From positions 1 through 43,440 of the IMG/VR virus record IMGVR_UViG_3300037427_001734: a stretch of 43,440 nt of DNA, one strand, 5' to 3'. The position numbers were made by a program, and so were the translations under genes. Source of the stretch: a virus. Below are positions 2,640 to 43,440 of the stretch, one piece after another; positions within the stretch are counted from its first letter, which is position 1; each line of letters opens with the position of its first letter. The notes beneath the pieces were generated by a model. The model searched no databases and was not told the DNA's origin. It saw only the letters and a list, made by a program, of their open reading frames with translations.

Positions 2640-3123
2640 ATACAAGCAAGCGCCAGACTTCACTGTTATAAAAGATACAAGAGAGCAAGAAGGATACTAC
2701 TTCAGCAAATATAACAAATGCGCTGGAATGGTAGAACGCAAACTTGACACTGGTGATTATAGCATTGAGGGCATGGAACATTTAATATGTATAGAAAGAA
2801 AAGGATGTGTTGAAGAATTGGCTCAGAACTTGGGACAAAAGAAACACGCATTTTTAAATGAAATAGAACGCATGAAGGAGATACCTCATAGGTTTATTGT
2901 TTTGGAGTTCTCACTTGAAGACCTAGTAGAATTCCCAGACAATAGTAGGATACCTGAGAGCCAGAAGAAGAAGCTTAAAATATCTGGAAAGTATATGCTG
3001 AAATGCTTAATGGAGTTTCAGCTACATGATAATGTACATGTAATATTTGCAGGTAATAAGTACAATGCTTTTCTATTGGTTAGCAGTATTTTTAAACGTG
3101 TTAATGAGATGTACAATATATGA
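2632..3123 (+). CDS. ERCC4-type (XPF-like) nuclease
   Basis: A 163-residue nuclease of the ERCC4 fold, a branch of PD-(D/E)XK enzymes that cut branched or flapped DNA. The visible catalytic set is IKDTREQ at about 13-19 (metal-binding Asp and the conserved Arg-Glu), GDYSI at about 41-45, and ICIERKG at about 52-58, where ERK carries the catalytic Glu and Lys. The C-terminal part (KYMLKCLMEFQ, VIFAGNKYNAF) fits the remaining core helices and strands. No helicase or helix-hairpin-helix domain is attached, as usual for phage versions. It overlaps both neighbours (8 and 4 bases) and lies between the HNH nuclease and the ClpP-like gene, so a role in resolving replicated DNA before packaging, or in recombination, is the reasonable inference. 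Confidence 0.85.
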   Translation: MAKYKQAPDFTVIKDTREQEGYYFSKYNKCAGMVERKLDTGDYSIEGMEHLICIERKGCVEELAQNLGQKKHAFLNEIERMKEIPHRFIVLEFSLEDLVEFPDNSRIPESQKKKLKISGKYMLKCLMEFQLHDNVHVIFAGNKYNAFLLVSSIFKRVNEMYNI

Positions 3124-37549: not shown

Positions 37550-38704
37550 ATGGCTGGTACTGCTAATAATAGAATTTTCTATGCTTGTCAGGCTGTAGGC
37601 TTTGCTAAACTGGGTCACGATGGCTCAGATTACAAAGTTGCCCACGGTGTTCAAAGCGTAGGGATAACGACAAACTTTAACTTGGAACAAGCTTTTGAGC
37701 TTGGCCAAATTCAAATTTATGAAAACATCGAGGGTACTCCTGACGTTGAAGTAACAATGGAGAAGGTTCTTGATGGAAGACCACTTTTATACCACTTGGC
37801 TTCTCAGGGTGCAACCTCCGCTGGGCTTGTTGGTCGGTCTAAAGAGCGAGCAAACGTTGCGCTTGGTATTTGGAGTGACGGCTTTGATTACGTTGGTCAA
37901 GAAGCTGGTGGTCACAACAATCAACCTGTTGTTCAGGTGAATATGTCAGGTATGTACTTATCTTCTTTGAGTTACAATATGCCTATTGACGGCATGGCAA
38001 CTGAGTCAGTAACATTGGTAGGTAACTATAAGACTTGGTTAACTGGCGATAGCGACACTGACCTAGATCCCTCTAGTGAAGGCTTCGGAAGTGACAAGCC
38101 TGCATCATCTGGTCTGGGCGGTGTTCAAAGAAGAGAAAACTTCATGCGGGCGAAGTCCATATTACCGACTGATATTGATGGTGTAACAACAAACGGCGCG
38201 GGTGGAATTCAAGATAGCTGTCACTTGCAGAGTTTCTCGGTCAGTACAGACTTCTCTAGAGAAGACATCTTTGAACTTGGCAAAAAGGCTCCTTACTATA
38301 GATCAACAAACTTCCCAATTGAAGTTACCTGTGACATTGAAATGGTTTCTATATCTGGTGACTTTATTGGTGCCTATGAGTTTGGTGATCCAGCGTTGTA
38401 TCAAACCGACGCCCTTAATACTACGGCGTCAGGTGACAATACTGCTGAGCAAAAAATTGTGTTTGTCCTAGAAAATGCCACAGCATTTGACTTGGGTGAA
38501 AAGAACAGACTTTCTTCTGTCAGTTATGGTGGAGGAGATGCTACTGGTGGTAATGTAAGTGTTTCTTACAGCTATACTAACTTTAACGACTTAGAAGTGA
38601 TTTCTAGTGGAGACCCCGCCCTTTCAGAACACGGCGGAAGTCTCAAGTATAGCCCTGCACAGTCTGGATACTCAGGAAACTGGGGTAAGGTAATTAACGC
38701 CTAA
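37550..38704 (+). CDS. Major tail (tube) protein with duplicated domain
   Basis: A 384-residue tube subunit. Two halves carry the same motif: GVQSVGITTNFNLEQAFELG at 33-52 and HLQSFSVSTDFSREDIFELG at 225-244, each followed by a proline-containing strand (TPDVEVTMEKV and NFPIEVTCDIEMV). So the protein looks like two copies of a tail-tube beta-sandwich in one chain, which would make a trimeric ring act like a hexamer. VVQVNMSGMYLSSLSYNMPI in the first half is the tube-wall strand pair. Arg use includes more CGN than in accessory genes. Promoter C and TAGGAG precede it. A +1-frame ORF (38700-38804) begins at its end. Confidence 0.82.
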   Translation: MAGTANNRIFYACQAVGFAKLGHDGSDYKVAHGVQSVGITTNFNLEQAFELGQIQIYENIEGTPDVEVTMEKVLDGRPLLYHLASQGATSAGLVGRSKERANVALGIWSDGFDYVGQEAGGHNNQPVVQVNMSGMYLSSLSYNMPIDGMATESVTLVGNYKTWLTGDSDTDLDPSSEGFGSDKPASSGLGGVQRRENFMRAKSILPTDIDGVTTNGAGGIQDSCHLQSFSVSTDFSREDIFELGKKAPYYRSTNFPIEVTCDIEMVSISGDFIGAYEFGDPALYQTDALNTTASGDNTAEQKIVFVLENATAFDLGEKNRLSSVSYGGGDATGGNVSVSYSYTNFNDLEVISSGDPALSEHGGSLKYSPAQSGYSGNWGKVINA

Positions 38705-38804
38705 TAATTTAGCGGTTGATATTAAAACCGCAGGAACAACGCCAAAGTTTGCGATAGCTATTAGGAAAGCAAGTGGCAGAGGCGTAAGGAAGGACTTAAT
38801 ATGA
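38700..38804 (+). other. Open +1-frame stretch after tail tube gene, possible small protein or frameshift tail
   Basis: One base out of frame with the tube gene's last codons, codons run open from about 38697 to TGA at 38802-38804 and would add PNNLAVDIKTAGTTPKFAIA and then IRKASGRGVRKDLI. The stretch contains no ATG, GTG or TTG. Its stop forms an ATGA overlap with the leader ORF start, as real genes here do. Codon use looks coding. It could be the product of a +1 frameshift at the tube stop, a gene with an unusual start, or a remnant. No classical slip site was found. Confidence 0.3.
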
Positions 38805-38836
38805 TAATCAAATACTCCCGTCTTGAGGTTTTGTAA
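38801..38836 (+). CDS. Possible 11-codon leader peptide
   Basis: ATG at 38801 follows a strong AGGAAGGA Shine-Dalgarno (38787-38794) with about seven bases' spacing and encodes MIIKYSRLEVL. Its TAA (38834-38836) shares one base with the start of the next gene. The leader's fifth to seventh codons lie in the left arm of an inverted repeat. This suggests a regulatory leader rather than a functional peptide. Confidence 0.45.
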   Translation: MIIKYSRLEVL

Positions 38837-38859
38837 TGAAGCAGCATGAACGGGAGTAT
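38812..38859 (+). promoter_or_regulatory. Hairpin enclosing the 38836 gene start
   Basis: ATACTCCCGT (38812-38821) and ACGGGAGTAT (38850-38859) are exact inverted repeats of ten bases separated by 28. The loop contains the ribosome binding sequence (TTGAGG) and the ATG at 38836; the right arm is codons 5-8 of the gene. In mRNA it could hold the start in a loop, and ribosomes on the leader ORF would open it. Confidence 0.65.
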
Positions 38860-39873
38860 CTCATATCTAGGATTAGGGCTGGAGTTTGCTTAGTTAATAT
38901 ACGGGGCATTGACTTAGTAATAAAACCGCCAGACGCGCTCAAGAAATTGCAGATTGATAAAGTATTCAAGGAATCGTATAATAGATCTTACGAAGACGGA
39001 ATAATGGATCATGATGAAATGGAAGAGTGGATGTTTGATCAGGGCTTATGGGTATATGAAGACCAAAAAGCTCTGGACGACCTAGCCAAGGATATAGAAA
39101 CCTTAAAGCTCGAAATGTATAACAACAGGAGCAAGGTTTCAATTAGGGAGAGCGCACGTCAATACTTGAGGACGGCGGAGAGAGCACAGGATGAAGCGGT
39201 AAATAGAAAAACATTTCACATACCACATACTTGTGAGGGGATAGCTAGGACAGATCAGTTTAGAGAGCTTTGTAGAATATGTACATATAAGGACGACAAA
39301 TTATATGACTTTTCTGAAATAAGCGTAGATGAGGTTGTAGCGGAATATCACACCCATACACTCACGGAAAAACAGATTCGTAACCTTGCCAGAGAAGAGC
39401 CTTGGAGATCCTTGTGGGCTATTAGAGAAGCTGCTAGCATACAACTTTTTTATAACCATGACAAGGAACTAACCAGCGATCAAAAAAACTTATGTATATG
39501 GTCTATAATGTACGACAATATACAGGAATCCGCAGAGCCTCCACCAGAAGAGGTCATTGAAGACGACGATGTTTTAGATGGTTGGTTCATATTCCACAGG
39601 AAGAAGAGAGAACGAGAAAAACTTGAAAACGAGTTTGAAAATAAAACCAGTGCGAATATATCCAATAAAAACGAAGTATTTGTAATGGCCCAGAGCGATA
39701 AAGAGATTGAGCAGGTTAATAGCATGAATCCTCTATATGCTCAACAAACCAAAAAGAGAAGATATAAAGAACTACAGCAAAAGGGAAAATTAGAGCAACA
39801 TCAGTTTAGAGACCAGCAACTTATACTGCAACAGATGAGTAATCAACAGTATAAGGACAAATTTAGGAGTTAA
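38836..39873 (+). CDS. Pre-tape-measure tail assembly protein (paralogue 1)
   Basis: A 345-residue protein in the slot of tail assembly chaperones, between tube and tape measure. It is helical and highly charged. Residues about 45-85 (DGIMDHDEMEEWMFDQGLW and then LDDLAKDIETLKLEMY) align with the gene at 40253 (DGVMTKQELKQLMKDKGIW, then IEDSLVSLERRLY), so the two are paralogues. A probable metal cluster is IPHTCEGIARTDQFRELCRIC. The C-terminal third is a Gln/Lys/Glu-rich coiled coil ending in QQYKDKFRS. It may bind tape measure or tube subunits. Its expression is probably controlled by the leader/hairpin ahead of it. Lambda-type G/GT frameshifting was not seen. Confidence 0.55.
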   Translation: MKQHEREYLISRIRAGVCLVNIRGIDLVIKPPDALKKLQIDKVFKESYNRSYEDGIMDHDEMEEWMFDQGLWVYEDQKALDDLAKDIETLKLEMYNNRSKVSIRESARQYLRTAERAQDEAVNRKTFHIPHTCEGIARTDQFRELCRICTYKDDKLYDFSEISVDEVVAEYHTHTLTEKQIRNLAREEPWRSLWAIREAASIQLFYNHDKELTSDQKNLCIWSIMYDNIQESAEPPPEEVIEDDDVLDGWFIFHRKKREREKLENEFENKTSANISNKNEVFVMAQSDKEIEQVNSMNPLYAQQTKKRRYKELQQKGKLEQHQFRDQQLILQQMSNQQYKDKFRS

Positions 39874-39878
39874 AGGAA

Positions 39879-40250
39879 ATGGACGATTTCAAAGACTTAA
39901 TAAGAGCTCAAGAGAGCTATAAGACTGCTCGCGAAGATAAATTTAAGGTTAACTCGCGTGACAGGCTAGCAAAGATAATAAAGAAAAAAATACAAACAAC
40001 CATGATAGGCGCGCTAAGCAGCTTAGAAGACCATCTTGGGTTTCTATGGGGGACTAATGAAAAAGACCTCACGCAAGAGCAAACCTATATGAAAGAACTG
40101 TATCAAAAAGTCAGATCTGAGATATTAGATAAGGGAAATACTCAGGCCAGAAATGTCGATGCAGAACTATCACAGTATGATGTGAAATGGTTAAAGTATA
40201 CCGTGGAAATGCCAATAGCAAACCCAAAGACTAACGAGGAAGGGAACTAA
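39879..40250 (+). CDS. Small tail-assembly-region protein
   Basis: A 123-residue, helical, charged protein between the two paralogous genes. MDDFKDLIRAQESYKTARED leads into a basic stretch RDRLAKIIKKKIQTT, an amphipathic helix, then a helical end (AELSQYDVKWLKYTVEMP). No family recognised. Its start is five bases after the preceding stop with AAAGGAA in front; the next ATG follows two bases after its stop. It could be an assembly chaperone or small structural component; position is the only support. Confidence 0.55.
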   Translation: MDDFKDLIRAQESYKTAREDKFKVNSRDRLAKIIKKKIQTTMIGALSSLEDHLGFLWGTNEKDLTQEQTYMKELYQKVRSEILDKGNTQARNVDAELSQYDVKWLKYTVEMPIANPKTNEEGN

Positions 40251-40252
40251 AG

Positions 40253-41140
40253 ATGCCAAAAGAAAAGTTTACTGATATAAATATTTTAGACGAAGATGGT
40301 GTGGAGCACAACATTCGAGTCATTAAACCCACAAACAAACTCAATTCAGAGGCCCAAAGAATTGGAGCCAAGGTTTGGACTGACTGCATCCAAGATGGAG
40401 TTATGACCAAGCAGGAGCTCAAGCAGCTAATGAAGGATAAAGGAATTTGGGGTGAAGCCCACGACAAGCGTCAAAGGGAAATAGAAGACTCACTTGTATC
40501 CCTCGAAAGACGGCTTTATATTAATAAGAGAAAGAAGATGAAACTCTCTGAAGCAAAGCAAATTGCTTACGACATGAAGAGAAAGAGAATAGAGCTGCGG
40601 GATCATATTGCTGAAAGAATCGCCCTAGAGAGTAATACTGCAGAATCTTTAGCAGATAATGCTAAATTTGACTTTCTTGTGGCAAATTGCACTTTGTTCC
40701 AAAACGGACAAAAGGTGTATAAAACAATAGAAGACTATCAAAATGGAGCTGATGACATCGTAGCATTTACCGCTGCTGCAGCACTAGCGGAGATGTTATA
40801 CTCTTTAGACGCTTCTTTTGAAAGAGGGTTGCCGGAAAATAAGTTTTTAGTGGCCGCTGGATTGGTTAATGAAGACTTAGATCTGGTAAATAAAGAAGGT
40901 GAGTTAGTTGACCTAGATGGTAAGGTTATCAACGAAAGAGGTTGGTATCAAGACGAAGACGGTAATAGGGTTGATAAAAATGGAAACCCGATGACTGACC
41001 AAGGTACTTATATCCCCCAAGTATCTTATATAGATGATGAAACTGGGGAGGAAATAGTTGTTAGTTTAGACGACGAACAAGAAGGAGAAGACACACCAGA
41101 GGAAGAAACAACAGAAGAAAACAACGACACGGAAAGTTAA
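40253..41140 (+). CDS. Pre-tape-measure tail assembly protein (paralogue 2)
   Basis: A 295-residue protein. Residues 1-170 are helical with the conserved DGVMTKQELKQLMKDKGIW segment that pairs it with the 38836 gene. A middle helical region carries LADNAKFDFLVANCTLFQNG, matching RTDQFRELCRICTYKDD of the paralogue in position. The C-terminal third is acidic and repetitive: GELVDLDGKVINERGWYQDE, DGNRVDKNGNPMTDQGTY and an end of Asp/Glu with Thr. The DxDGxxxD-like repeats resemble calcium-binding loops but could be simple linkers. It lies before the tape measure as assembly chaperones do. The start lacks a clear ribosome site and overlaps its neighbours' spacing closely. Confidence 0.55.
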   Translation: MPKEKFTDINILDEDGVEHNIRVIKPTNKLNSEAQRIGAKVWTDCIQDGVMTKQELKQLMKDKGIWGEAHDKRQREIEDSLVSLERRLYINKRKKMKLSEAKQIAYDMKRKRIELRDHIAERIALESNTAESLADNAKFDFLVANCTLFQNGQKVYKTIEDYQNGADDIVAFTAAAALAEMLYSLDASFERGLPENKFLVAAGLVNEDLDLVNKEGELVDLDGKVINERGWYQDEDGNRVDKNGNPMTDQGTYIPQVSYIDDETGEEIVVSLDDEQEGEDTPEEETTEENNDTES

Positions 41141-41175: not shown

Positions 41176-43440
41176 ATGTCTAAATTCGTACTGACTGCAC
41201 AGTTGCAGCTACAAGCGCCTACAAACACTAGACAGGTAGTCACAAATATCCAGAATCAACTGGGTGGTGGTGTTACTGTCCATGTCAATGTTAAAAATGG
41301 TAAGCAAGCCAACAAGCAAGTAAAAGACCTAGCAAATAATACTAACGCAGCTGCTGACGCAGCTACTAAACTTGGTAGGTCGTTTGCTGTTTCGTTTAAG
41401 CGCTTTGCTGCTTTCTCTATTGCCACAAGAGCTGTCGGGGTATTTACCCGAAGTCTTGGTGACTCAGTACGTGCTGCTGTTGACTTTGAAAGACAACTTA
41501 TAAAGGTTTCTCAGGTTACTGGGAAATCAATGCGTGATCTAAAAGGGCTTACTGATGAGGTAACTAGGTTAGCAACTGGCTTAGGTGTTAGCTCTTCAGA
41601 GCTGTTGAATGTTTCTAGAATCTTGGCTCAGGCTGGTTTATCTGCTAATAATACCAAAACAGCCTTAGCAGCCCTAGCAAAATCTTCTCTTGCTGCCACG
41701 TTTGATGATATTACTCAAACTGCTGAAGGCGCAATTGCTATCCTTAATCAGTTCGGCCAAGGCGCAGCCGCCTTGGAGAGCCAGCTTGGTGCCATTAACG
41801 CTGTTGCTGGCCAGTTTGCTGTTGAATCGGCAGACTTGATTGCGGTCATAAGACGTACTGGTGGTGTGTTTAAAGCTGCTGGTGGTGACCTCAATGAGCT
41901 TATTGCGCTCTTCACTTCTGTTAGATCTACTACTCGTGAGTCGGCTGAATCTATTGCCACTGGTCTTAGAACTATTTTCACACGTATCCAAAGACCAAAA
42001 ACTATTCAATACCTACAAGACTTAGGGATATCCCTTACAGACGCTGAAGGTAAGTTTGTAGGGGCATACGAAGCTATAAGAATACTTAGTAACGCTATGG
42101 CCAATATGGAGGCAGGTGATCTTAAGTTCATTGAAATAGCCGAACAGCTTGGTGGTTTTAGACAAATCGGTAAGATTATTCCGTTATTGTCAGAATTCGC
42201 TACCGCTGAGCGCGCACGTCAAGTTGCAATGGATGGAGCAAACTCACTCACTGAAGATGCAGCAACCGCACAAGGTGCACTTTTGGTCAGGGTCACTGCG
42301 CTCAAAGAAGAGTTTTTAGCATTAGTCAGAAGTATGACAGCCGCGCCACTATTTCAAATAATGGCCAACTCAGCTATTTCTTTAGCTAGTGCGCTTGTAA
42401 AGGTTGCAAGTGTTCTTAAAAACATTCTACCTCTTATAACTGCTTTAGGTGCTGTGAAGATATTTGGCACGCTCGGCAAGTTTGCTGGCGGCTTTGGTGG
42501 CCAGCTAGCTGGAGCAGGCGGGCCTAGAGCCTTTGCTAGTGGTGGTTTAGTTCCCGGCACTGGCAACAGAGACACTGTTCCCGCAATGCTAACACCCGGC
42601 GAGTTCGTTATAAGAAAATCAAGCGTGGGCAAAATCGGCACGAATAGACTCTCAGCAATGAACGCCAAGGGTTATAATAAAGGCGGAAAAATATTAGACG
42701 CCAAGAAGTTAGCAGTCATATCTTCTGACCCTTTCAACGCCACTCCTTGGGCGGACACTGATTCAATTCCCTCATCTGAGGTAGGCAAAAAAAGACCTTC
42801 TAATAACTGGGAAGGGCCTCAAGGTAAAGGTGCCAAAGCTTTAATAGGTGGCGTATTCCAAGCTGGAACGCCGGGAGCAGAAGCCGCTTTAAAATCCATT
42901 GCAGACCAGATGGGCAATAGTAAATCCTTTAAATTTACCTCTGAAGGACTTTCGTCAAAGGTGGCGAAAAAGTTTGATGAAGCTTTAGACGAAGGCGTTG
43001 TCACTGGCGTCAATGCATCAATTGGTCAATTATCAAAAAGTCTTGGCGCTGGAAAACCAAAAACAAAAATGCCAGATGGCAGCGCACTCGTAAACGCTGG
43101 ATTTAAAGGTAGTTTATTTGAAGAAGTTCTCGCTGGATTTAATGGGGCGCCTACTGCCGACATCGCTGACGAAACTGCTCCATGGGACTTTCCTCAAGGT
43201 ATATCTGGAACTCTCGGAAATCTTTATAAAACAGCAAAAGAAGCTCAGCTAATTGATGCAAAATTAGTAGCCGCAAAAGACAGAAAGAAAACAAAGATAG
43301 ATGACGAAGGTAATATAACATCCGGCGTTTCTAAATACACAAATTCAGCCTTTGTGAGTAAGGCCACTTCAGCTTTGACTCAGGCAGTTTATCATAAAGC
43401 ATTTGACGCTGGAAAGGCAGCTGAGCAGCCAGTCCCCGGA
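41176..43440 (+). CDS. Tail tape measure protein, 5' part
   Basis: Open to the window end; 755 codons visible from ATG at 41176. It sets tail length and enters the host with DNA. After a short beta start (MSKFVLTAQLQLQAP) the TP901-type domain follows: AVDFERQLIKVSQVTGKSM, GLTDEVTRLATGLGVSSSEL, ILAQAGLSANNTKTALAAL, TQTAEGAIAILNQFGQG, RRTGGVFKAAGGDLNELIAL and IATGLRTIFTRIQRP. Then a hydrophobic segment (LVKVASVLKNILPLITALGA) and a GGLVPGTGNRDTVPAMLTPG motif typical of tape measures. Near residues 645-696 a set GSLFE, PWDF and LIDAK resembles PD-(D/E)XK nucleases and is unusual here. The ribosome site is weak. Confidence 0.9.
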   Translation, partial: MSKFVLTAQLQLQAPTNTRQVVTNIQNQLGGGVTVHVNVKNGKQANKQVKDLANNTNAAADAATKLGRSFAVSFKRFAAFSIATRAVGVFTRSLGDSVRAAVDFERQLIKVSQVTGKSMRDLKGLTDEVTRLATGLGVSSSELLNVSRILAQAGLSANNTKTALAALAKSSLAATFDDITQTAEGAIAILNQFGQGAAALESQLGAINAVAGQFAVESADLIAVIRRTGGVFKAAGGDLNELIALFTSVRSTTRESAESIATGLRTIFTRIQRPKTIQYLQDLGISLTDAEGKFVGAYEAIRILSNAMANMEAGDLKFIEIAEQLGGFRQIGKIIPLLSEFATAERARQVAMDGANSLTEDAATAQGALLVRVTALKEEFLALVRSMTAAPLFQIMANSAISLASALVKVASVLKNILPLITALGAVKIFGTLGKFAGGFGGQLAGAGGPRAFASGGLVPGTGNRDTVPAMLTPGEFVIRKSSVGKIGTNRLSAMNAKGYNKGGKILDAKKLAVISSDPFNATPWADTDSIPSSEVGKKRPSNNWEGPQGKGAKALIGGVFQAGTPGAEAALKSIADQMGNSKSFKFTSEGLSSKVAKKFDEALDEGVVTGVNASIGQLSKSLGAGKPKTKMPDGSALVNAGFKGSLFEEVLAGFNGAPTADIADETAPWDFPQGISGTLGNLYKTAKEAQLIDAKLVAAKDRKKTKIDDEGNITSGVSKYTNSAFVSKATSALTQAVYHKAFDAGKAAEQPVPG

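Follow-up and report, generated by a model that had tools for sequence, protein, structure and literature searches.

A conserved start-codon hairpin with an upstream ribosome landing site at a candidate tail assembly chaperone gene of uncultured phages

The window, that is, the whole stretch of DNA analysed, comprises the 43,440 nucleotides of IMG/VR virus record IMGVR_UViG_3300037427_001734. Between its tail tube protein gene and the next gene, here called gene A, lie predicted RNA structures and a short leader open reading frame (ORF) with its own Shine-Dalgarno (SD) site. The features of the locus are as follows:

37550..38704, plus strand: tail tube protein gene, upstream of gene A; its AlphaFold model matches the T5 pb6, DT57C and P74-26 tail tube proteins (best E 1.9e-10)
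38712..38731, plus strand: hairpin 1, a simple hairpin that folds in the window directly 3' of the tube stop codon and is followed by AGGA (38732-38735)
38735..38792, plus strand: second structured RNA element, identified by covariation, crossed arms and a model match of 47.4 bits
38739-38743 with 38781-38785, plus strand: stem P1 of the second element, enclosing its core
38751-38758, 38763-38766 and 38769-38774, plus strand: core of the second element, GCGATAGC, AGGA and GCAAGT, respectively
38787..38794, plus strand: SD site of the leader, AGGAAGGA, assigned from its sequence and from the GGA-type SD ahead of the hairpin in relatives
38801..38836, plus strand: leader ORF MIIKYSRLEVL, 11 codons and a stop (ATG ATA ATC AAA TAC TCC CGT CTT GAG GTT TTG TAA)
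38812..38821, plus strand: 5' arm of the start-codon hairpin, ATACTCCCGT, assigned from its sequence and from relatives
38825..38828, plus strand: GAGG, the SD site of gene A, inside the hairpin; TGAGG is conserved in most relatives
38836..39873, plus strand: gene A, 345 aa, candidate tail assembly chaperone, from its tube/tape-measure position and its paralogue, gene C
38850..38859, plus strand: 3' arm of the start-codon hairpin, ACGGGAGTAT, in codons 5-8 of gene A (GAA CGG GAG TAT)
39879..40250, plus strand: gene B, 123 aa, unnamed product, in conserved order
40253..41140, plus strand: gene C, 295 aa, paralogue of gene A by hhalign

Gene A is distantly paralogous to gene C, the second gene after it (hhalign probability 99.3, E 6e-21, 190 columns). 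Downstream of gene C, a long coiled frame resembling a tape-measure protein, judged by eye, follows position 41176 and is a probable tape-measure gene, which places gene A between the tube gene and the probable tape-measure gene, as in chaperones of the lambda G/GT type. The name 'tail assembly chaperone' is plausible for gene A on the grounds of this position and of the paralogy. The structural model of the gene A product is helical and confident (pLDDT 88); a fold search with it returned no significant structural relative, the weak matches, some of them named chaperones, having E values of at least 0.2, and searches for Pfam, PHROG and recognised RNA-binding families gave no match. Relatives of gene A were found in about 80 IMG/VR contigs and 3 genome contigs at 25-48% identity, and nearly all of them retain the order tube, A, B, C. 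A search for isolated phages in 50,697 phage records yielded no sequence relatives of the tube protein, gene A or gene C. The group that carries tube, A and C is large and uncultured, with contigs of up to 174 kb.

A sequence-only reading of this DNA had pointed to a 10-base perfect inverted repeat (38812-38821 versus 38850-38859) whose 28-base loop contains the GAGG and the ATG of gene A, and to an SD site followed by an 11-codon ORF. Both were confirmed, and the last A of the leader TAA is the first base of the ATG at 38836 (TAATG). We observed that the 28-base loop is not open: two more short helices form within it, and the terminal loop above them holds the A and U of the AUG. Taken alone, such a repeat could be due to chance: perfect 10-mer inverted repeats with a loop of 3-45 nucleotides number 2 in the window versus 1.4 expected, and folding of 141 nt of RNA from the window gave a moderate z of -2.2 versus shuffles; its significance comes from relatives.

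The hairpin was therefore judged on an alignment of 51 sequences, consisting of the window and 50 relatives with 36-48% protein identity. The same three-tier hairpin surrounds the start codon in 51/51 of them, with predicted energies of -18 to -30 kcal/mol. In this alignment 95.8% of cells are paired, two-sided changes occur at 6 pairs, and each of five hairpin measures was reached by 0/500 shuffles. The codon for Arg6 is CGG in 51/51, while CGG makes up 1.6% of the Arg codons elsewhere in the same genes. The codon for Glu7 is GAG in 49/51 versus 28.6% elsewhere, and the two exceptions at codon 7, GAT in L043 and GAA in L048, are both matched by changes in the 5' arm. The CGG bias and the compensated exceptions argue that the constraint acts on RNA and not only on protein, and the G-U pairs inside the stem speak for RNA and against DNA. 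Accidental pairing, or a by-product of protein coding, might have been suspected given that about one such repeat is expected per window, but this explanation is refuted by the comparative data, namely conservation with compensation over 51 sequences together with the CGG bias. In the relatives, TGAGG and CATGAG are conserved around the internal loop of the hairpin; each genome has one site, always at gene A. No Rfam family was matched by the hairpin at the gathering threshold, in the window or in relatives. A hairpin that bridges the SD to a start codon lying beyond it, as at T4 gene 38, was considered and rejected: no conserved in-frame start follows the 3' arm, and gene A has nearly the same starting point in distant relatives that lack the hairpin.

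The sequence-only reading had made the hairpin's standing depend on relatives keeping the repeat, with any drift of the arms compensated. The comparison is mostly in its favour: the arm changes of L043 and L048 are compensated, but a small clade formed by L065 and L070 is without the hairpin. Both of these are long branches sitting inside the hairpin clade on the tree, and have probably lost the structure, which is also absent from a distant clade (L067-L079). In L049, compared with L042, the hairpin is gone through an apparent single clean deletion between the arms, around position 3001, that also removed the gene A start codon; a possible cause is an assembly or amplification artefact. L067, L069, L071, L072, L076 and L077 carry a different GC-rich hairpin, in some cases with a U-run, in the gap from the tube gene to gene A, immediately before position 3001.

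One could read the start-codon hairpin as a transcription attenuator: gene A would begin with an intrinsic terminator that leader ribosomes would block, and transcription would step down after the tube gene. Codons 8-9 of gene A are TTT TTT in about half of the relatives and thereby provide a U-run after the stem, and several distant relatives carry the different hairpin just mentioned. In the window, however, the stem is followed by TATCTCATATC, which has no U-run, and a terminator scan was negative there. The U-run is also what Tyr and Phe codons normally give in AT-rich genes (TTT 444, TTC 126 elsewhere), and its presence or absence makes no difference to how well the hairpin is conserved. 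Because the window hairpin is intact although it lacks a U-run, a terminator is disfavoured, and we regard it as very unlikely. Slimmer still are the chances of an mRNA processing site of the RNase III type that splits the tube mRNA from the downstream mRNA. The hairpin is indeed long, mostly paired and located between cistrons of different expected demand; its helices, though, are short and interrupted by internal loops, its sequence conservation exceeds what a double-strand nuclease needs, and cleavage would take away the start of gene A.

Ahead of the hairpin, 45/52 sequences have a leader with its own SD at normal spacing. The leader start codon lies 3-17 nt before the 5' arm, and the stop falls between -3 and +11 from the gene A start in 37 of the 45. 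The leaders are 1-17 codons long, occupy three frames and have no peptide in common: those of L026 and L033 read MGNSRSEVT and end in TAATG, that of L054 reads VKQYYSRTCKV and ends at -5, and that of L016 is ATG-TAA only. Frame 0 is closed by in-motif stop triplets in 39/45 and open in 6/45; avoidance of fusion with gene A was dropped as independent evidence, frame 0 being open in so few cases anyway. In seven relatives (L015, L032, L044, L047, L051, L052 and L056) the hairpin is present but no leader start of the ATG, GTG or TTG type is. At the place of the leader ATG of other relatives they have ATA (six) or ATT (one), 6-7 nt past the GGA and 20-45 nt upstream of the gene start; this triplet may represent a lost start, a weak start or a plain standby site. 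All seven fall within one 17-row clade of the tree.

These observations bear on the translational attenuation that the sequence-only reading had proposed, in which passage of ribosomes through the leader opens the hairpin and couples gene A to it; that reading further suggested that the arrangement would yield little chaperone relative to tube protein, a ratio reached in lambda by other means. The proposal is supported in that the SD and AUG lie within a conserved hairpin that is probably inhibitory, and that leaders with an SD and a stop close to the gene A start recur across relatives. What finds no support is attenuation by regulatory codons or a stalling peptide, since leader frame, length and peptide all vary, and across the 52 sequences we found no conserved leader codons or stalling peptide of the kind used in classical leader-peptide attenuation (erm, trp type). 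Nor is there support for a leader being needed in every case, given the seven relatives without a standard leader start. The variation in frame, length and peptide suggests that the leader probably loads a ribosome that melts the hairpin, and does not act through peptide sensing. Ribosome footprints reach about 15 nt past the start codon, and a ribosome initiating on the leader would already cover part of the 5' arm, so that a leader as short as the ATG-TAA of L016 could still be effective.

Comparison of the sequences shows a module in which the predicted SD and start of gene A lie in a conserved hairpin, with a putative ribosome landing site (a GGA-type SD, usually with an ATG) just upstream. 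We propose, with a probability of roughly 0.6, that the interval from the tube gene to gene A is a cis-acting translation-control module in which a ribosome recruited by the leader would open the hairpin, the frame and peptide of the leader being irrelevant. From the opening of the hairpin by the leader onward, each step of this mechanism is one that we infer. The hairpin would hold direct initiation at gene A very low, and a ribosome initiating at the leader or reading through it would melt the lower stem. This ribosome would terminate close to the gene A AUG and then either reinitiate or leave the site open. The yield of gene A would in this way be capped separately from that of the tube gene, at a dose set by the strength of the leader and the stability of the hairpin.

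Between the tube gene and the leader lies the second structured RNA element, which the sequence-only reading had overlooked. Its core, GCGATAGC...GGA...GC(A/G)AGT, is invariant in 28 distinct sequences. MAFFT with RNAalifold overlooked the enclosing stem P1, whose arm spacing is variable; P1 was settled by per-sequence duplexes and crossed arms. The covariation score of P1 is 0.405 versus 0.156 in shuffles (0/500), and its own arms pair at -12.9 kcal/mol versus -4.9 kcal/mol for crossed arms. A model of the element found one strong copy in 14/28 whole records, always at this locus, and one weak second match in one record. Outside this locus, matches to the GCGATAGC and CTCCCGYCATGAGGTT patterns in viral contigs were rejected as chance. 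The element is not recognisable in group B relatives or L061, and neither the window nor the relatives gave an Rfam match to it. By sequence comparison it is a well-supported, previously undescribed RNA structure absent from Rfam. Hairpin 1, farther upstream, has a counterpart at the same place in most group A genomes, with changing sequence.

The two structures differ in how their sequences are kept. In the same 28 genomes, two-sided diversity occurs in 0.05 of comparisons for the lower stem of the start-codon hairpin versus 0.594 for P1, while the lower stem also pairs more fully (98% versus 81%). Part of the conservation of the 3' arm is coding (HEREY/F); coding constraint accounts for some of the lower-stem conservation but not for the CGG codon. 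Given this difference in diversity, pure coupling is insufficient to explain the conservation of the lower-stem sequence, and its retention beyond base pairing suggests, as a guess, that a phage or host factor may recognise the hairpin in trans.

The hairpin might accordingly be viewed as chiefly a translational operator, recognised through its sequence by a host protein or by a phage protein such as the gene A product or the tube protein, which would shut off gene A once in excess, in the manner of MS2 coat protein or T4 gp43, with the leader and upstream element tuning access or offering a second site. Such a role is compatible with coupling. It would fit the strict lower-stem sequence, the motifs around the internal loop, the single site per genome always at gene A, and the presence of a second element with an invariant internal loop, but the binding protein is hypothetical, gene A belongs to no recognised RNA-binding family, and the 3' arm is conserved in part for coding. 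We consider an operator possible, if on balance unlikely. The MS2 replicase operator is a single sequence-conserved hairpin at the start site that is bound by coat protein. A hairpin with conserved sequence at the start site is also found in the T4 gp43 operator (PMC3014915). Here, in contrast to both, the start codon lies in the terminal loop of a three-tier hairpin. The GCGATAGC element could, again as a guess, be a second protein-recognition site. Rather unlikely is the idea that the two structured RNAs form one device sensing a tail protein, in which a phage protein would bind the GCGAUAGC/GGA/GCRAGU internal loop, the start-codon hairpin or both, adjusting synthesis of the chaperone, and perhaps of the tape measure, to the state of tail assembly. 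If true, double-stranded DNA phages would here possess a riboregulator that senses assembly and sets chaperone dose in place of the lambda frameshift.

The proposed opening of the hairpin by a leader-recruited ribosome has parallels in known systems. Translation of Salmonella mgtQ opens a hairpin over the mgtB ribosome-binding site (RBS), so that, as here, a short ORF in the gap between operon genes frees the next RBS (PMC8092293). However, mgtQ uses alternative stems and destabilising Asp/Glu codons (PMC8092293), whereas the phage leader runs into the very hairpin it would open, ends at the start of gene A and has no conserved peptide. Models of translational coupling include RNA unfolding and reinitiation, as for f1 VII/IX and MS2 coat/lysis (PMC12548453). 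In these pairs, too, translating the first cistron either opens a structure that inhibits the second or supplies a ribosome that reinitiates there, but their upstream cistrons encode real proteins, whereas the module here has a leader of 1-17 codons without conserved sequence. Inhibitory hairpins of T4 gene e, soc, 49 and I-TevI and of Aeh1 mobE likewise hold the SD and/or AUG of a DNA phage gene in a helix and reduce initiation (PMC3014915). Those cases have no leader ORF, and in T4 gene e and I-TevI the hairpin provides control of early versus late transcripts; the module described here is conserved down to 36% protein identity and is accompanied by a second RNA element. With lambda G/GT the locus shares the placement of genes between tube and tape measure and two related products that have a domain in common (A and C here). 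The lambda pair arises by programmed frameshift, whereas here there are two separate paralogous genes, and control would be exerted at gene A initiation.

We found no description of this module in the open-licence literature; it is new in detail, while its general kind is already known. The locus provides a testable RNA module at the point where the late operon steps from an abundant tube protein down to rarer assembly factors. The CGG codon signature (51/51) is unusually clear and shows a route to finding such sites in uncultured viruses. If the mechanism holds, the module would be a second evolutionary answer, beside programmed frameshifting, to the dosing of tail chaperones.
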